A stretch of 64,000 bases of DNA. Origin: an uncultured Azospirillum sp. GTDB taxonomy: Bacteria; Pseudomonadota; Alphaproteobacteria; RF32; CAG-239. Location: positions 1 to 64,000 of the forward strand of contig CAMYUM010000001.1 of assembly GCA_947301965.1 (NCBI GenBank), given 5' to 3'. This document shows, piece by piece, positions 27,453 to 63,195 of this stretch (positions are counted from its first letter, which is position 1; each line of letters begins with the position of its first letter). The position numbers and the translations under genes are program-made. The notes under the pieces are model-generated. The model did not search any database. It had not been told where the DNA came from and saw only the letters and a program-made list of their open reading frames with translations.

Positions 27453-28901
27453 ATGGCTGGCGAAGCAATTACTACTAATAACGAAGATGTCCAAGATGAA
27501 TGGGGACAAATTTGCTCGCAATTAAAACAAGAGGTTGGAGAAAAGGCTTTTGACAGTTGGTTGAAGCCGTTGAGCATAAGCTCTTTTTCCAGCGGAGTAA
27601 TGAACATCAGTGTGCCGACGCGTTTTATGCGCAACTGGGTTATCACAAATTACTCTGACAGAATTCATAAAATATGGGAAAAGAAAAATCCTAATATAAA
27701 AAGTATTAATTTTATTGTTCAGGCCGCAGACGAAGGTATTATGACCGGAGTGCGTAATTCTACCTGTAGATCTTTATTAAAGAAAGTTTATCAAAGTCCG
27801 GCACCACAAAACATATATCAGTCCGGGTTAAACAATATTCAGCTGGAATCCGGTTATGTTTCTGATGCTAACCAATCGTTGTCTGTGCCGCTGAATCCGC
27901 AATATACCTTTGAAAATTTTGTTGTCGGCAAAACTAACGAGTTTGCTTATGCTGCGGCAAGAAAGGTTGCCGAATCCGACGATATACCGTTTAATCCGTT
28001 GTTTTTATATTCGGGCGTAGGACTCGGAAAAACCCACCTGATGCACGCCATTGCATGGAGAATTAAACAAAGAAATCCAAACAAAAATATTGTTTATTTG
28101 TCTGCAGAGAAGTTTATGTATAAATTTGTAAGAGCTCTGCGTTATAAAGACACCGCCGCTTTTAAAGAACAATTTCGCTCAGTTGATGTTTTGATGGTTG
28201 ACGATGTTCAGTTTATGGGCGGTAAAGACACCACACAGGAAGAATTTTTCTACACCTTTAACTCTTTGATTGAAGAAGGCCGTCAGATAATTATTTCTGC
28301 AGATAAATCTCCTTCTGATTTGGAGGGAATCGAAACCCGTCTGCGTTCTCGTTTGGGTTGCGGATTGGTCGCTGATATTCATCCGACTGATTTTGACCTC
28401 AGAATCGGTATTTTGCAAGCCAAAGCAAAACAGCTTAATTGCGAACTGCCACAAAAAGTTGCCGAATTTTTGGCGCAGAAAATTACTTCAAACATCCGTG
28501 AGCTGGAAGGTGCTTTGCGTCGCATAATTGCTCATACACAATTGCTGCCGGGTAAAGAGATAACCCTTGAAAACACTCAAGATGTATTGAAGGATATGTT
28601 GCGTTCTTATGACCGCAGAACAACAATAGATGAAATTCAGAAAAAAGTAGCTGAACACTTCAATATATCGGTCAAAGAAATGCAATCATCACGCCGTGCA
28701 AGAACCGTGGCCAGACCTCGTCAGATTGCCATGTATTTGGCCAAGCTTTTGACATTGCGTTCTTTGCCGGAAATAGGGCGAAAATTTGACCGTGATCATA
28801 CAACGGTAATGCACGCGGTGCGCAAAGTTGAAGAACTTATAAAAGAAGATTCAAGCGTTGCCGAGAGCGTTGAAGTTTTGCGTCGATCTTTAGAGGCATA
28901 A
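27453..28901 (+). CDS. dnaA: Chromosomal replication initiator protein DnaA
   Basis: DnaA binds DnaA boxes at oriC and melts the origin. The 482-residue protein has the N-terminal domain (WGQICSQLKQEVGEKAFDSWLKPL), a variable linker, the AAA+ ATPase with LFLYSGVGLGKTHLMHAIA, VLMVDDVQF and the RSRLGCGL sensor region, and the C-terminal DNA-binding domain with the signature RHH-type loop FDRDHTTVMHAVRKVEEL. The start at 27453 has AAGGA upstream. It is preceded by rpsT and followed by a Nudix gene, dnaN and recF, a standard cluster. The 250-base gap before it lacks clear DnaA boxes. Confidence 0.98.
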   Translation: MAGEAITTNNEDVQDEWGQICSQLKQEVGEKAFDSWLKPLSISSFSSGVMNISVPTRFMRNWVITNYSDRIHKIWEKKNPNIKSINFIVQAADEGIMTGVRNSTCRSLLKKVYQSPAPQNIYQSGLNNIQLESGYVSDANQSLSVPLNPQYTFENFVVGKTNEFAYAAARKVAESDDIPFNPLFLYSGVGLGKTHLMHAIAWRIKQRNPNKNIVYLSAEKFMYKFVRALRYKDTAAFKEQFRSVDVLMVDDVQFMGGKDTTQEEFFYTFNSLIEEGRQIIISADKSPSDLEGIETRLRSRLGCGLVADIHPTDFDLRIGILQAKAKQLNCELPQKVAEFLAQKITSNIRELEGALRRIIAHTQLLPGKEITLENTQDVLKDMLRSYDRRTTIDEIQKKVAEHFNISVKEMQSSRRARTVARPRQIAMYLAKLLTLRSLPEIGRKFDRDHTTVMHAVRKVEELIKEDSSVAESVEVLRRSLEA

Positions 28902-32317: not shown

Positions 32318-32716
32318 CTATAAACCTAACAGCTGTGATGCGATATTAATGTATTTTTTGCCGGCCTCCTGCGCTCCTAATACCGTATCTTTAAGATTTT
32401 TTTCTTTACGGAGCGAGGCGATTTTTATCAACATCGGAAGATTGACACCGGCAAGAATTTCAACTTTTGCTTTATCCATAATTGAAATCGCCAAATTTGA
32501 CGGGGTTCCGCCAAACAGGTCGGTTAAAACTATCGTTCCTTCGCCGCTGTTGACTTTTTCGACTTTGTGAAGAATTTCATCGCGGCGATCTTCCATGTTA
32601 TCTTCAGGACCGATGCAAACTGTTTCTATCTGCTCCTGTTTGCCGACCACATGCTGCATTGCCGACACAAATTCTTTGGCTAAATTGCCGTGTGTAACCA
32701 AAACCAATCCCAACAT
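32318..32716 (-). CDS. PTS EIIA component, mannose family
   Basis: The 132-residue protein is a mannose-type (PTS-Man) EIIA domain, with the phosphorylated His in LVLVTHGNLAKEF and the family motif VLTDLFGGTPSNLA. It has no EIIB or membrane partner nearby and precedes ptsH, so it is probably a regulatory EIIA that signals phosphorylation state, as with EIIA-Man next to HPr and HprK in Rhizobiales. The ATG at 32716 follows a short gap after the 141-residue unknown gene. Confidence 0.9.
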   Translation of the reverse strand: MLGLVLVTHGNLAKEFVSAMQHVVGKQEQIETVCIGPEDNMEDRRDEILHKVEKVNSGEGTIVLTDLFGGTPSNLAISIMDKAKVEILAGVNLPMLIKIASLRKEKNLKDTVLGAQEAGKKYINIASQLLGL

Positions 32717-49946: not shown

Positions 49947-50834
49947 TTATCCCGCTTTTTTGTTCGATAACATGTCAATAATTCGGTCAAGTTCCGACAA
50001 ATCGGCATATGGCAAAATAACTTTTCCGCTACCGTTCGCAGATGAAGATATTTTTACATTAAAACCAAGACTTTGTTTGAGGCTTTTTTCAATATCCGCA
50101 ACATCGGAATTTGTTTTTTTCTTGGTTTTGGTTTTAGTTTCTTTGCTCTTTTGTACAAGCTGTTCTACTTCGCGAACACTCAAACCTTTGTCTACAATTT
50201 TTTTGGCCAAAGCTTCGGCTTGTTCAAGTCCAACCAACGGGCGGGCATGTCCGGCGGTCAGTTTATTATCACGAATCATTTGCTGTACGCTGGCGGGCAG
50301 AGTTAAAAGCCTTAAGGTGTTGGCAATATAACTGCGCGATTTTCCGATAACACTGGAAAGGGCTTCTTGTGTATGCGAAAACTCATTAATCAGGCGCTGT
50401 AAACCCTCTGCCTCTTCAATTGCTGACAGGTTTTCACGCAAAAGGTTTTCAACTAACGCTACCTCTAAAACCTCTTTGTCGGCCATATCTTTTACAATAA
50501 CCGGAATTTCGGACAGCCCAGCTTGACACGCTGCTCTAAAACGGCGTTCGCCGGCGATGATTTCAAACTTTCCGTTATTTTTAGCACGAACCAATAAGGG
50601 CTGGAGAACTCCTTTTTCTTTGATAGAAACCGTCAGGGCATCCAGTGCTTCCTGATTAAATTCGGAACGGGGCTGATATTTACTGGCATAAAGCAGTTTT
50701 ATCGGCACCATTTTAACGTTTTCGCCGGATACATTTTCTTTAGTCGGAGTTTCTTCGGTCAACAAAAGAGCGTCTTCACCTAAAAGAGCACCCAAACCGC
50801 GACCTAAACTTTTTCTTTTATTGTCTTCTAACAT
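49947..50834 (-). CDS. parB: Chromosome partitioning protein ParB
   Basis: ParB is a CTP-dependent clamp that loads on parS and spreads, marking the origin region. The 295-residue protein has the RKSLGRGLGALLG start, the arginine-rich CTPase patch (IIAGERRFRAACQAGL), the helix-turn-helix region (FSHTQEALSSVIGKSRSYIANTLRLL) and a C-terminal dimer domain. The ATG at 50834 overlaps the end of parA. Two perfect parS sites lie at 52191-52206 and 53394-53409. Confidence 0.97.
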   Translation of the reverse strand: MLEDNKRKSLGRGLGALLGEDALLLTEETPTKENVSGENVKMVPIKLLYASKYQPRSEFNQEALDALTVSIKEKGVLQPLLVRAKNNGKFEIIAGERRFRAACQAGLSEIPVIVKDMADKEVLEVALVENLLRENLSAIEEAEGLQRLINEFSHTQEALSSVIGKSRSYIANTLRLLTLPASVQQMIRDNKLTAGHARPLVGLEQAEALAKKIVDKGLSVREVEQLVQKSKETKTKTKKKTNSDVADIEKSLKQSLGFNVKISSSANGSGKVILPYADLSELDRIIDMLSNKKAG

Positions 50835-51607
50835 GCTAATAATTCCTTTTCTCTTTTTAACATTTCTCCGGCCAGGCTTATGTATGCCTGAGATCCCGGA
50901 CATTTGAAATCGTACAACAAAACCGGTTTTCCGTGAGACGGTGCTTCAGAAACACGAACGTTCCGCGGAATAACTGTTTTATAGACTTTTTTGCCAAAAA
51001 AGCCGCGAACGTCTTCTTCTACCATTTGGGTAAGATTGTTGCGGCAATCGTACATTGTTAAAACAACCCCCTGTAGTTCGAGTTTGGGGTTAAAGTGCTT
51101 TTTGATTAAATTTATATTGCTGATTAAGTCGCTTACGCCCTCAAGAGCCAAATATTCACATTGCAGAGGAACAACAACCGCATCTGCGGCAACAAGTGCA
51201 TTGATTGTTACCAGACTGAGTGACGGAGGACAATCAATCAGCACATAATCATAGTTGTTCACCGTTTTATTGAGGGCATTACGGAGATAAAATTCGCGGC
51301 GGTCTTTATCAATTAATTCAACCTCGGCTCCGGCAAGGTCGGGGGACGAAGGAACTAACGAAAAATTGGGGATTTCGGTCCAAACAACCGCCTCGCTTAA
51401 ACTGCGTTCGCCAATGATGACATCGTATGAGGACACCATGTTGTCATGTTTGTTAAAACCGAGTGATGTCGTTGCATTGCATTGGGGGTCAAGATCAATA
51501 ACCAGCACCTTTTTACCCGTGGCCGCCATGGCGGTGGCAACGTTTACCGTGGTAGTGGTTTTTCCAACTCCCCCTTTGCGGTTGGCAACAGCAATTATTC
51601 TAGGCAT
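50828..51607 (-). CDS. parA: Chromosome partitioning ATPase ParA
   Basis: ParA is a deviant-Walker ATPase that moves ParB-bound origins. The 259-residue protein shows KGGVGKTTTTVNVATAMA (deviant Walker A), VLVIDLDPQCN and YDYVLIDCPPSLSL. Its stop overlaps the parB start by 7 bases, and its start overlaps the end of rsmG by 8 bases, giving one tight operon with mnmG, the HD gene, rsmG and parB. Confidence 0.97.
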   Translation of the reverse strand: MPRIIAVANRKGGVGKTTTTVNVATAMAATGKKVLVIDLDPQCNATTSLGFNKHDNMVSSYDVIIGERSLSEAVVWTEIPNFSLVPSSPDLAGAEVELIDKDRREFYLRNALNKTVNNYDYVLIDCPPSLSLVTINALVAADAVVVPLQCEYLALEGVSDLISNINLIKKHFNPKLELQGVVLTMYDCRNNLTQMVEEDVRGFFGKKVYKTVIPRNVRVSEAPSHGKPVLLYDFKCPGSQAYISLAGEMLKREKELLAC

Positions 51608-60182: not shown

Positions 60183-60905
60183 ATGGTTAGAGAAATTGTT
60201 TTTGATACAGAAACAACAGGACTTTCTCCGGAAAAAGGCGACAGATTGGTTGAAATAGGAGCAGTTGAGCTTATTAATCATTTGCCGACCGGAAAAACGT
60301 ATCATCAATATATTAATCCTGAAAGAGATGTGCCGGAAGAAGTTGTTGCGGTACATGGTTTGACTGAAGAATTTTTAAAAGATTATCCGGTGTTTGCTGA
60401 TGTGGCACAGGATTTTATAGATTTTGTCGGTGATGATGGAATTTTAGTTGCTCATAATGCTTCTTTTGATATGGGTTTTATAAATTATGAACTGAGAAGA
60501 ATAGGGCGGGAAGAATATAATTGTGACAATGTTGTTGATACATTGGAAATTGCGCGCAAAATGTTTCCGGGGTCCAAAAACAATTTGGATGCTTTATGTA
60601 AGCGTTTTGGTGTTGATAACAGTAATCGTACATTGCACGGAGCTTTGCTTGATGCTGATTTATTAGCAAAGGTTTATTTGGAATTATTGGGTGGTGATGA
60701 GCCGTCCATGCTGGCAGACGCACAACAAACAAAATCACTAAACAATAATAATGCAGATTTTTTGAGTGATAAAAAATATCATGAACCGAGAATTTTTGCG
60801 ATCAGCGAAGCAGAAGAAAAAGCTAATCGTGAATTTTTAGAAGCAAAAATAAAGAATTCTATTTGGTTGTCGGACGAATCAGAGAGCGCCGATAAGGGAA
60901 AATGA
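60183..60905 (+). CDS. dnaQ: DNA polymerase III epsilon subunit (3'-5' exonuclease)
   Basis: DnaQ proofreads for the replicative polymerase. The 240-residue protein has the three exonuclease motifs: FDTETTGL (Exo I), AHNASFD (Exo II) and HGALLDAD (Exo III with the HxAxxD pattern). A short charged tail would bind the alpha subunit. Its 3' end overlaps the end of the convergent ADP-kinase-like gene by 27 bases. Confidence 0.96.
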   Translation: MVREIVFDTETTGLSPEKGDRLVEIGAVELINHLPTGKTYHQYINPERDVPEEVVAVHGLTEEFLKDYPVFADVAQDFIDFVGDDGILVAHNASFDMGFINYELRRIGREEYNCDNVVDTLEIARKMFPGSKNNLDALCKRFGVDNSNRTLHGALLDADLLAKVYLELLGGDEPSMLADAQQTKSLNNNNADFLSDKKYHEPRIFAISEAEEKANREFLEAKIKNSIWLSDESESADKGK

Positions 60906-62279
60906 TGATATAGTGTCACCCATTCCGACCAAGGTTTTAGGGTGGTCAATCAATATTGTAGGAACTGCTATAATATCGAATCCTTTATATTCACAAATTC
61001 CTTTAGTTAAAAGGGTTGTTTTTTTAAGGTGCAGTCCGAGATTATAAAGTTCTTTTATACCAACATCAGATACTTGCATACCATAAGACTTTAAAATATC
61101 CTGAGGTTTTGAAAGTTGCCCATAAAAAGCTTTGCTGGCAGCAGAAGTTGCGGCTAAAATCATACCGTTACGGTTTTTGGCCGGAGAAATAGAAAAGTTT
61201 TTGTCTTGTATTGTTATATACAATCCAAACATATGTAATTGAATACGAGGACATTTTAGTTTTGTTTTTATTCTTAAGATTGCATCAAAAAGATTTGACG
61301 ATGATGGATTTTGTCGGCATTTTTCAAGAAGTTTGTTTTGGTTAAGCGCTTTTAGAATATCCATTGTTTCGCGTTCGTTTACACCTATAGAATCGACATT
61401 AGGTATAAGATATCGGGTGATGTTTTTAAGAACATTATTGTCTTGAGTTGAAGCAATTTCAAGGTGAACAATTGATTTTGGACTTTGTTCTTTCCAGTTA
61501 TGAATAATATTAACACTATTTTTTATATGTTTAAGAGCGTGATTTTTTGAACTTAATGCTTGATATCCGGAAAGAACAAAATAATCAAACTTGTTGTTGT
61601 TAGTATAATCAATAAAATTTTTATCAATTACAAAATTAAACAGCGGCGGGTCATAAGTAATGATAAAACGATTTGATTTAGGACATGTAAATTCACATCC
61701 TTCTAAAGTTATTTTATCTCCTTTATCAAACTCAACTATCCAGTGAATCGAAGATATTTTATCACGATTAATTTTTGAAGCTTGTTTAAGAATCCCTTTT
61801 TTATCAAAAGAGAGTAAATTTTTGCGGTTAAAAAACTGGCCGGCCTGTAAAGAACTCAGAGCGTTACTATGAACAACAACTTCTTTTATGTCTGTCAGCG
61901 ATAAGGTGTTAGCGATAATACCTCCTTGACCCCCGACTTGCATTTTTTTTACGCCAAGATTTTTTAACATCCAATCGAACATTTCAGGTTGTTCTGCAAC
62001 CCATTCTTCAGCAATACCGTTTGTAAAACAACGGAAAACACCACGCAATAAATCAAGAGGTGAATTTACAGAACAATGAACAATGTTTTTTAACTCTTTA
62101 AGTGAAGATTTTTGTTGCAAAAAAAGATTGGTAAAATCTTTTCCTGATAATTTTACGACCGAATCTATACAACTGTTAAAAGCACAAGCAACACGCTTTA
62201 TTTTTGACATTTTTGCAAGGGTGTTAGGTGCTTTTTTGTAAAGAGTATTCCAAATATTATTTGGTAACGTTTTGGGCAT
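60879..62279 (-). CDS. ADP-dependent sugar kinase family protein (glucokinase/phosphofructokinase-like)
   Basis: The 466-residue protein matches the ADP-dependent glucokinase/phosphofructokinase family, known mainly from archaea and animals. Motifs (numbered from the TTG-started frame two residues longer) are GGQGGIIAN (118-126), the substrate-binding HLEIAS (274-279), the metal-binding GVNERE (301-306) and the catalytic GMGDTIS (454-460) with Asp457. All key residues appear present, so it should be active. The ATG at 62279 follows GAAGG. It overlaps the upstream Mic60-like gene by 23 bases, so they are co-translated. The sugar and phosphate donor are not determined. Confidence 0.78.
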   Translation of the reverse strand: MPKTLPNNIWNTLYKKAPNTLAKMSKIKRVACAFNSCIDSVVKLSGKDFTNLFLQQKSSLKELKNIVHCSVNSPLDLLRGVFRCFTNGIAEEWVAEQPEMFDWMLKNLGVKKMQVGGQGGIIANTLSLTDIKEVVVHSNALSSLQAGQFFNRKNLLSFDKKGILKQASKINRDKISSIHWIVEFDKGDKITLEGCEFTCPKSNRFIITYDPPLFNFVIDKNFIDYTNNNKFDYFVLSGYQALSSKNHALKHIKNSVNIIHNWKEQSPKSIVHLEIASTQDNNVLKNITRYLIPNVDSIGVNERETMDILKALNQNKLLEKCRQNPSSSNLFDAILRIKTKLKCPRIQLHMFGLYITIQDKNFSISPAKNRNGMILAATSAASKAFYGQLSKPQDILKSYGMQVSDVGIKELYNLGLHLKKTTLLTKGICEYKGFDIIAVPTILIDHPKTLVGMGDTISSFSLIGAL

Positions 62280-63195
62280 CTTCAACCTTCATTATTAACA
62301 ATGATGCGTTAATTATGTTTGATAAAGATTTATAAAAATCGAGCTGATTTTTTGTTTGCTCATACCAATTTTGTAAATTTTCATCAGACATAAGATTTTG
62401 ATTTTGAGGCTTTGAAAGCTCGTTTAATGCTGCTGAAAAATCACCGCCGTTTACAAGCTGTTTAATCGGAGACAATATTTTGATGGGGTCGTATGGTTCT
62501 TGTTGCGGTTGATTACGGTTTGAAATTTGGACATATTCACCGAGTTTGGTAGAAAGACGCTGTTTCCAGTTTTGTTCATCTTTGGGTTGCAGTTTTTTTT
62601 CGGTTTGATTGTAAATATCATTAAAATTATTAATGAGAGTGTTGTTAGAAACAAAACCCGTATTACAATGATTGGAAATAAATTCAACATCTTGAGAAAT
62701 ATTATCAATGTTTTTGGCTAAGATTTTTAATCCCTCGGCTTCGTTTTTACAACCAATACCTTTGTAAATATTATCACGAATAAGCATTGCAGATGTTAAT
62801 AACAAGGCACCTGAGTTTGATGTTTGCGAAAGTTTTTTGGTAGAATTACGAAGGTCGTTTATTTGGTTTGTGAGAGTAATTATTTGCTCGTTATCGGCTT
62901 TTGATTTTGCGAAGGTATTAAAATTTTGTTGGAGTAAATCAGATTTTTCCGCACTGTTTTGGGTGATTAAATTCAGGGTTTCAAGTTTGTTTTCGATAGT
63001 TTCTATTTTGGCGGAATTGATAGATGAAAGTTGATTGTCGCTGATTTTAAGCCATTGAGTTAAATATTGAGGTTTTTGCCACAAAAATACGGCAAGTCCG
63101 ATAATTGATAACAATACAAATAACTCTATTGTTTTAAATAAAAAGGAACATATTTTGCCAAATTTGCTCGGAAGCGATGTTTTGTTTTTTGCCAT
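62257..63195 (-). CDS. Mitofilin/Mic60-like inner-membrane protein
   Basis: The 312-residue protein has a single N-terminal membrane segment (IELFVLLSIIGLAVFLW), a coiled coil (about 60-125), and a C-terminal domain with the helical pattern of alphaproteobacterial Mic60/mitofilin (LLLTSAMLIRDNIYKG, then IKQLVNGGDFSAALNEL and NWYEQTKNQLDFYKSL). Mic60 shapes inner-membrane invaginations and contacts the outer membrane, and is the ancestor of the mitochondrial protein. Its position beside tsaD (divergent) fits the usual neighbourhood, although hemC and hemD, which often lie between them, are missing. Confidence 0.7.
   Translation of the reverse strand: MAKNKTSLPSKFGKICSFLFKTIELFVLLSIIGLAVFLWQKPQYLTQWLKISDNQLSSINSAKIETIENKLETLNLITQNSAEKSDLLQQNFNTFAKSKADNEQIITLTNQINDLRNSTKKLSQTSNSGALLLTSAMLIRDNIYKGIGCKNEAEGLKILAKNIDNISQDVEFISNHCNTGFVSNNTLINNFNDIYNQTEKKLQPKDEQNWKQRLSTKLGEYVQISNRNQPQQEPYDPIKILSPIKQLVNGGDFSAALNELSKPQNQNLMSDENLQNWYEQTKNQLDFYKSLSNIINASLLIMKVEDAQNVTK

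Follow-up and report, generated by a model that had tools for sequence, protein, structure and literature searches.

A predicted ADP-dependent glucokinase with a conserved gene order in gut-associated alphaproteobacteria, probably the only free-glucose kinase of its host genome

The window, by which we mean the whole stretch of 64,000 nucleotides that was analysed, comes from an alphaproteobacterial genome and carries a predicted ADP-dependent glucokinase (ADP-GK). We consider it likely that this enzyme is the sole free-glucose kinase of the host genome, that its gene keeps a fixed order in a gut-associated bacterial order, and that its product would pass through PGI to an ADP-type phosphofructokinase (PFK) of the PFK-A fold, the AMP formed being recharged by adenylate kinase and/or PPDK.

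Priming glycolysis with ADP has been regarded as a speciality of archaea, animals having a single, puzzling enzyme of this kind. A bacterial clade in which an ADP-GK is apparently the main or only glucokinase would offer a testable system for why cells spend ADP. Bacterial members of the family (PF04587) as such have been mentioned before, in the available excerpt of PMC7948494; what gives the present case its weight is the clade-wide presence of the kinase, its glucokinase signature, the lack of a second glucokinase in the host genome within the families searched, and the ADP-type motif of the host PFK. The open-licence literature, which leaves most subscription papers outside its scope, yielded no paper on an ADP-GK in these alphaproteobacteria.

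The kinase gene and its family

The host genome (G000) has 1.29 Mb in 21 contigs and is 100% complete, the kinase lying on a contig of 267 kb. The features of the locus are the following:

60183..60905, plus strand: exonuclease/dnaQ-like gene, named by sequence resemblance; convergent with the kinase gene, overlapping its 3' end by 27 nt; outside the system
60879..62279, minus strand: predicted ADP-dependent glucokinase (PF04587), 466 aa, ATG start; assigned by PF04587 profile, motifs, residues and AlphaFold model
60915..60926, minus strand: GMGD codons (residues 452-455, catalytic Asp455), at a computed position, the motif being aligned
62257..63195, minus strand: upstream gene, 312 aa, overlapping the kinase gene by 23 nt; by eye, a hydrophobic stretch at the N-terminus and sequence resembling coiled coil

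The kinase frame runs on the minus strand from the ATG at 62279 to the stop at 60879 (466 codons), and a TTG at 62285, upstream of this ATG, is in frame. It encodes a full-length PF04587 protein in which every catalytic motif is present. In a Pfam search PF04587 matched it with 235.4 bits (cut-off 27; E 1.3e-69) over model positions 1-429 of 430, and no ATP-dependent ribokinase model competed for it, the next Pfam match having an E-value of 0.16. The sequence-only reading had assigned the gene to the ADP_PFK_GK family; with a score far over the threshold and no better ribokinase match, this assignment holds.

The same reading had noted all family motifs, including the catalytic GxGD, as present, and the alignment with archaeal-type enzymes shows GGQGGI at 116-121, HLE (H272, E274), NERE (N301, E304) and GMGD (D455). 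The family motifs HXE, NXXE/DXXE and GXGD and the phosphate-binding Arg (R206) are all present in the window's kinase. Of 106 kinase loci, 105 could be aligned (91 distinct over the last 350 aa; the divergent protein of genome G810 was unmatched and left out). H280, E282, E313 and R206 are kept in 105/105 loci and D471 in the 104/104 with a residue there. The NCBIfam equivalogs all fell below their cut-offs (ADP-PFK TIGR02045, 201.5 of 408.1 bits; GK PRK14038, 174.8 of 554; PRK14039, 171.6 of 387). With the Pfam score far over its cut-off and these scores far under theirs, membership of PF04587 is certain, whereas an equivalog name is not secured.

Gene order around the kinase

The overlap of 23 nt between the two reading frames makes translational coupling of the kinase with the upstream gene, which had been stated as a fact, plausible. 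Two other statements on the locus were not upheld. The upstream gene owes the name "Mic60-like" to its position only, Mitofilin being absent from the 25 families shown out of 27 that had a match in at least one of 21 members (Pfam, E 0.1). With respect to a place next to the replication origin, the kinase lies ~32 kb from a dnaA-like gene (27453-28901) and 9 kb from parAB-like genes (49947-51607), all named by resemblance. A sigma-70 scan returned 20 promoter-like sites where 10.1 were expected, and a terminator scan returned none where 1.9 were expected; both were left unused.

In 80/80 relatives fetched (the best 80 of 289), the kinase stands on the same strand behind one or two conserved genes. 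These are the homologue of 62257-63195 in 45 cases, this homologue together with a TPR gene in 33, and the TPR gene alone in 2. The TPR gene resembles HemY, under the model cut-off (54.5 of 142 bits). The simplest explanation is that the kinase gene came to lie behind the gene pair in the ancestor of the family and then stayed there.

Most of the genomes were assembled from metagenomes, and the kinase gene could in principle be an archaeal one misplaced in a bacterial bin. However, the 267-kb contig has bacterial genes on both sides of the kinase, whose GC (0.326) is like the 0.323 of the upstream gene and near the 0.367 of dnaQ and the 0.364 of rho; the window has 0.404. The upstream neighbours are kept in every one of the best 80 of 289 relatives, and the kinase recurs across the family, as described below. 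Such an artefact has a negligible probability and is already refuted in practice.

Distribution and origin

PF04587 was found in 114/152 genomes of the host's own family, in 15/16 genera (113 matches over cut-off), and in 115/153 genomes of the order; the host genome has one copy. We take this clade to be the GTDB order RF32, family CAG-239. Among 14 control genomes two had the family, both methanogens. A class sample of 385 genomes gave five matches, four of them from the own family and one from genome G201, and one more own-family genome had no match; the count for other sampled alphaproteobacteria is hence 1 (G201) in ~380. Among 398 genomes sampled from the phylum, the host genome aside, only G810 matched, weakly and over part of the model (53 bits). 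The unusual host pointed out in the sequence-only reading, an alphaproteobacterium with a family known mainly from archaea and animals, is confirmed. The accessible text of PMC12696579 names the family from archaea and animals, and that of PMC7304191 has no member in Candidate Phyla Radiation bacteria.

The G810 protein, a divergent PF04587 match over model positions 85-429, comes from the 5.6-Mb genome of an alphaproteobacterium outside the host's family, and possibly represents a separate PF04587 subfamily. Within the order, genomes without the kinase belong mostly to one genus, g7, in which 28 of 35 genomes lack it (28 of the 38 non-carriers in all). A suspected pseudogene remnant in genome G066, a match of 37 residues, is a gene truncated where its contig stops.

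A scan of named genomes returned the best 80 of 289 relatives, so relatives in other phyla could be among the other 209. The labels among these 80 are Alphaproteobacteria, proteobacterium, Pseudomonadota, Rhodospirillales, Rhodospirillaceae and Azospirillum (one being Azospirillum sp. CAG:239). One metagenome-assembled genome labelled Lactobacillaceae (JAISVX010000001.1) shares this gene order and falls within the clade in the tree, and its label is probably wrong. A gut site or faeces is named for 15 of these best 80 of 289 relatives, the rest having no legible habitat, and it is from these 15 that a gut habitat is suggested for the window's host.

In a midpoint-rooted tree, 34 alphaproteobacterial proteins were split at 100/99 from three archaeal-type PDB sequences (one natural and two reconstructed ancestors). 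The tree has long branches, and the early forks within the alphaproteobacterial set have weak support. A donor search in plasmids gave only two haloarchaeal matches, at 24-25% identity. The proposal of an old horizontal gain fits the distribution (114/152 genomes in the family and about 1/380 elsewhere in the class sample), but the tree with its three archaeal-type sequences does not identify a donor.

Residues of the sugar pocket

In AncMsPFK, a reconstructed ancestral Methanosarcinales ADP-PFK, residues have been assigned by mutation (PMC7948494, in the part available): K179, N181 and R212 are tied to F6P binding, their alanine mutants having an F6P Km raised ~200- to 1000-fold, and E90 is the residue of glucokinases and bifunctional enzymes. 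In our alignment K179 is lost in 105/105 loci (Leu in 93, Ser in 7, Met in 5), N181 is replaced by His and R212 by Asp in 105/105, as in P. furiosus GK, and E90 is kept in all 104 loci with a residue there (one gap). The ADP-PFK signature of K179, N181 and R212 is absent from all 105. In the window's kinase position 179 is Ser, 181 is His, 212 is Asp and 90 is Glu, which is the ADP-GK signature (E90 kept, N181 replaced by His, neither K179 nor R212). Because E90 is kept and the three F6P-binding residues are replaced, we conclude that the window's kinase is a predicted ADP-glucokinase.

The AlphaFold model of the kinase (pLDDT 92.7) has the two-domain ADP-kinase fold: the top 17 VIA-align rows are all ADP-GK or ADP-PFK, with Z from 32 to 49, and the next row has 22.9. 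The first places are taken by P. horikoshii GK (Z 49.3; 1.7 A over 435 residues), P. furiosus GK (48.3) and T. litoralis GK (47.4), with the PFKs lower (F6P-bound AncMsPFK 45.4, P. horikoshii PFK 39.3). The kinase resembles the Pyrococcus and Thermococcus ADP-GKs (1ua4, 5o0j, 4b8s) in fold (Z 47-49), catalytic motifs and the P. furiosus GK-type residues H181, D212 and N310. It differs from them in sequence (23-28% identity), in its bacterial and presumably mesophilic host, and in a gene fixed behind a conserved bacterial pair. The animal ADP-GKs (5ccf, 5ck7) share family and fold (Z 32-33) but are more distant (19% identity).

Other scores would lead to an ADP-dependent PFK, or to a bifunctional ADP-PFK/GK. 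AncMsPFK (6c8z, 6xio), which has the same fold, is the best PDB sequence match (182.6 bits, followed by P. furiosus GK with 144.3) and the first Foldseek match by E-value, and the best NCBIfam score (201.5 bits) also goes to ADP-PFK. Besides, the near-complete carriers G005, G047 and G121 have no PF00365 match, and a PFK activity of the ADP kinase is possible in these three genomes. However, the window's kinase is unlike AncMsPFK at the F6P-binding residues, as are all other aligned loci, the structural Z favours GK, and the host genome already has a PFK-A. The residues weigh more than the structural Z, since domain closure affects such scores, and it is on K179, N181 and R212 that an ADP-PFK identity was rejected; we regard either form of this alternative as unlikely.

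As a further alternative, the ADP-dependent kinase could act on a different sugar, such as glucosamine or mannose, with glucose entering otherwise, e.g., through a mannose-type PTS. Glucosamine is said to be a substrate of some archaeal ADP-GKs, and position 244 of the sugar pocket is Gln in the window's kinase and His in 93/105 members. Two near-complete genomes without ADP kinase, ROK and Glk, described below, also count in its favour. On the other side, the glucose contacts D36, E90, G115, Q116, H181 and D471 are as in P. furiosus GK (position 115 is Ala in 2/105 members), and another sugar seems improbable to us.

Other routes to glucose 6-phosphate

Profile searches for Glk, ROK and PFK-A covered 72 genomes (38 non-carriers and 33 carriers of the order, and G201), and those for PTS_EIIC (PF02378), PGI, PPDK and PfkB covered 45, one of them outside the order. 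In these searches the host genome had no Glk, ROK, PfkB or PTS_EIIC PF02378. The same profiles found matches in the 14 control genomes (Glk in 4, ROK in 12, PTS_EIIC in 7, PfkB in 14).

Across the genomes searched, Glk matches occurred in 19/72, strong only in G093 (211 bits), the other 18 falling on ROK genes. ROK was found in 44/72, PTS_EIIC PF02378 in 0/45, and PfkB in 35/45, the host genome not among these. All four families are missing together from the host genome, G079 and G084, which belong to one genus. Among the carriers searched, 31 reach a completeness of at least 95%; 16 of these had neither ROK nor Glk, 14 had a ROK match (weak or split in G103, G121 and G201) and one had Glk. 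Neither family was found in 9/38 non-carriers; seven of these are under 95% complete, and G006 and G058 are near-complete. Genomes of this kind, without the kinase, ROK and Glk, indicate that the glucose phosphorylation step may be dispensable.

ROK is found more often in genomes that lack the ADP kinase (29/38 against 15/34 carriers, p 0.008; 22/24 against 14/31 among near-complete genomes, p 0.0004). A clean exchange of ADP-GK and ROK was nevertheless rejected, since the association arises from genus g7 (25/28 non-carriers against 4/7 carriers, p 0.08) and vanishes outside it (4/10 against 11/27); it is not claimed as independent evidence.

The ADP kinase is thus probably the only free-glucose kinase of the host genome, a statement that covers Glk, ROK, PfkB and PTS_EIIC PF02378 and leaves room for a hexokinase PF00349 or a mannose-type PTS; draft genomes, besides, can miss genes. 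The window also encodes, at 32318-32716, an EIIA-Man-like protein, named by resemblance, in a genome with no PF02378 match. It probably belongs to a regulatory PTS; it also makes a mannose-type glucose PTS a real gap in the argument for a sole glucokinase. The case differs from that of animal cells with ADP-GK, which also have hexokinases (PMC12696579, in the excerpt available).

It had been suggested from the sequence that the kinase lets the cell use ADP when ATP is low, which is possible. As the families searched yielded no second glucokinase, the use of ADP may be the principal route rather than a reserve for emergencies.

The phosphofructokinase step and the recharge of AMP

In the proposed pathway, the ribokinase-fold ADP-GK would convert glucose and ADP into glucose 6-phosphate and AMP, a normal PGI would convert G6P into F6P, and the predicted ADP-type PFK-A would convert F6P and ADP into FBP and AMP. 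The AMP would return to ADP through adenylate kinase at an ATP cost, or directly to ATP through PPDK (PEP + AMP + PPi giving pyruvate + ATP + Pi). PGI was found in 44/45 genomes (733 bits in the host genome).

The accessible part of PMC11609450 reports ADP-only PFK-As in cyanobacteria and Azospirillum brasilense, and links GGDGSxxI to ADP, GGDGSxxG to ATP and GG(D/E)D(S/T) to PPi. The single PFK-A of the host genome (G000:C3:7846-8928) has GGDGSMNI, a GGDGSxxI motif that predicts the use of ADP. Forty PFK loci were fetched, two of them of a second, long type and the other 38 from 38 genomes. In these 38 genomes, out of 64 with PF00365, the fourth residue after GGDG is Ile in 34, Val in 3 (genus g16), Met in one (G201) and Gly in none. 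The second type, in G152 and G201, comprises longer PF00365 proteins of 403 and 412 aa that lack GGDG and stand alongside the short PFK-A.

In a small PFK tree the clade groups at 98/99 with a cyanobacterial plasmid PFK (GGDGSLDI, itself a putative ADP type), apart from Bacillus-type ATP-PFK; the cyanobacterial and ATP-type rows are long-branched, the other forks are weak, and an Ilyobacter PFK with GGDGSQKI falls outside the group. Measured against a mark of over 40% identity to, and clustering with, proven ADP-PFK-As, identities of the host PFK-A do not discriminate (45% to the cyanobacterial enzyme, 39% by tblastn, against 42% to the ATP-type Anoxybacillus and 42% to the Ilyobacter sequence). 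An NCBIfam subfamily model calls the host PFK-A ATP-dependent (350 bits, cut-off 253), and such a model-based name, "ATP-dependent 6-phosphofructokinase", may misread these genomes. In motif the host PFK-A is like the ADP-dependent PFK-As of the available part of PMC11609450; it is of the PFK-A fold, unrelated to the window's kinase, and would be the partner step.

PFK-A is present independently of the ADP kinase (34/38 genomes without it and 30/34 with it), which indicates that the ADP kinase in general does not fill a PFK gap. Ile-type PFK-As are likewise present in genomes that lack the ADP kinase, such as G032, G039, G044, G056 and G058, so that the two are not strictly co-inherited.

Since recharge by adenylate kinase costs ATP, the use of ADP would save none on that route. 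PPDK scored 1342 bits in the host genome (cut-off 843) and was over cut-off in 42/45 genomes and in 4/14 controls. Being common in the order and present in controls, it is permissive and not specific; it may serve gluconeogenesis, and its part in the recharge of AMP is putative. For Thermococcus kodakarensis, whose glycolysis combines ADP-GK and ADP-PFK, the accessible text of PMC8100219 makes the same argument with PEP synthase. The likeness is that the AMP of two ADP kinases would be recharged at the PEP step; the differences lie in the PFK-A fold of the PFK here and in PPDK as the predicted enzyme of the PEP step.

An Embden-Meyerhof flux primed with ADP at both kinase steps, by a ribokinase-fold ADP-GK and a PFK-A-fold ADP-PFK, with AMP maybe recharged by PPDK, is put forward tentatively, as a possibility somewhat short of probable. 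If true, bacteria would have reached the Thermococcales scheme with a different PFK and partly unrelated parts. Together with the ADP-dependent PFK-A described for alphaproteobacteria (PMC11609450, in the excerpt available), both halves of an ADP-primed pathway would lie in one genome.

Outside the family, at L119:8533-12578 (G152) and L120:6398-10396 (G201), the kinase is found beside NADH-dependent [FeFe] hydrogenase-like genes. The G152 hydrogenase matches the group A6 model (812.5 bits, cut-off 765), its G201 counterpart is named by resemblance, and these neighbours point to a possible hydrogen-evolving fermentation.
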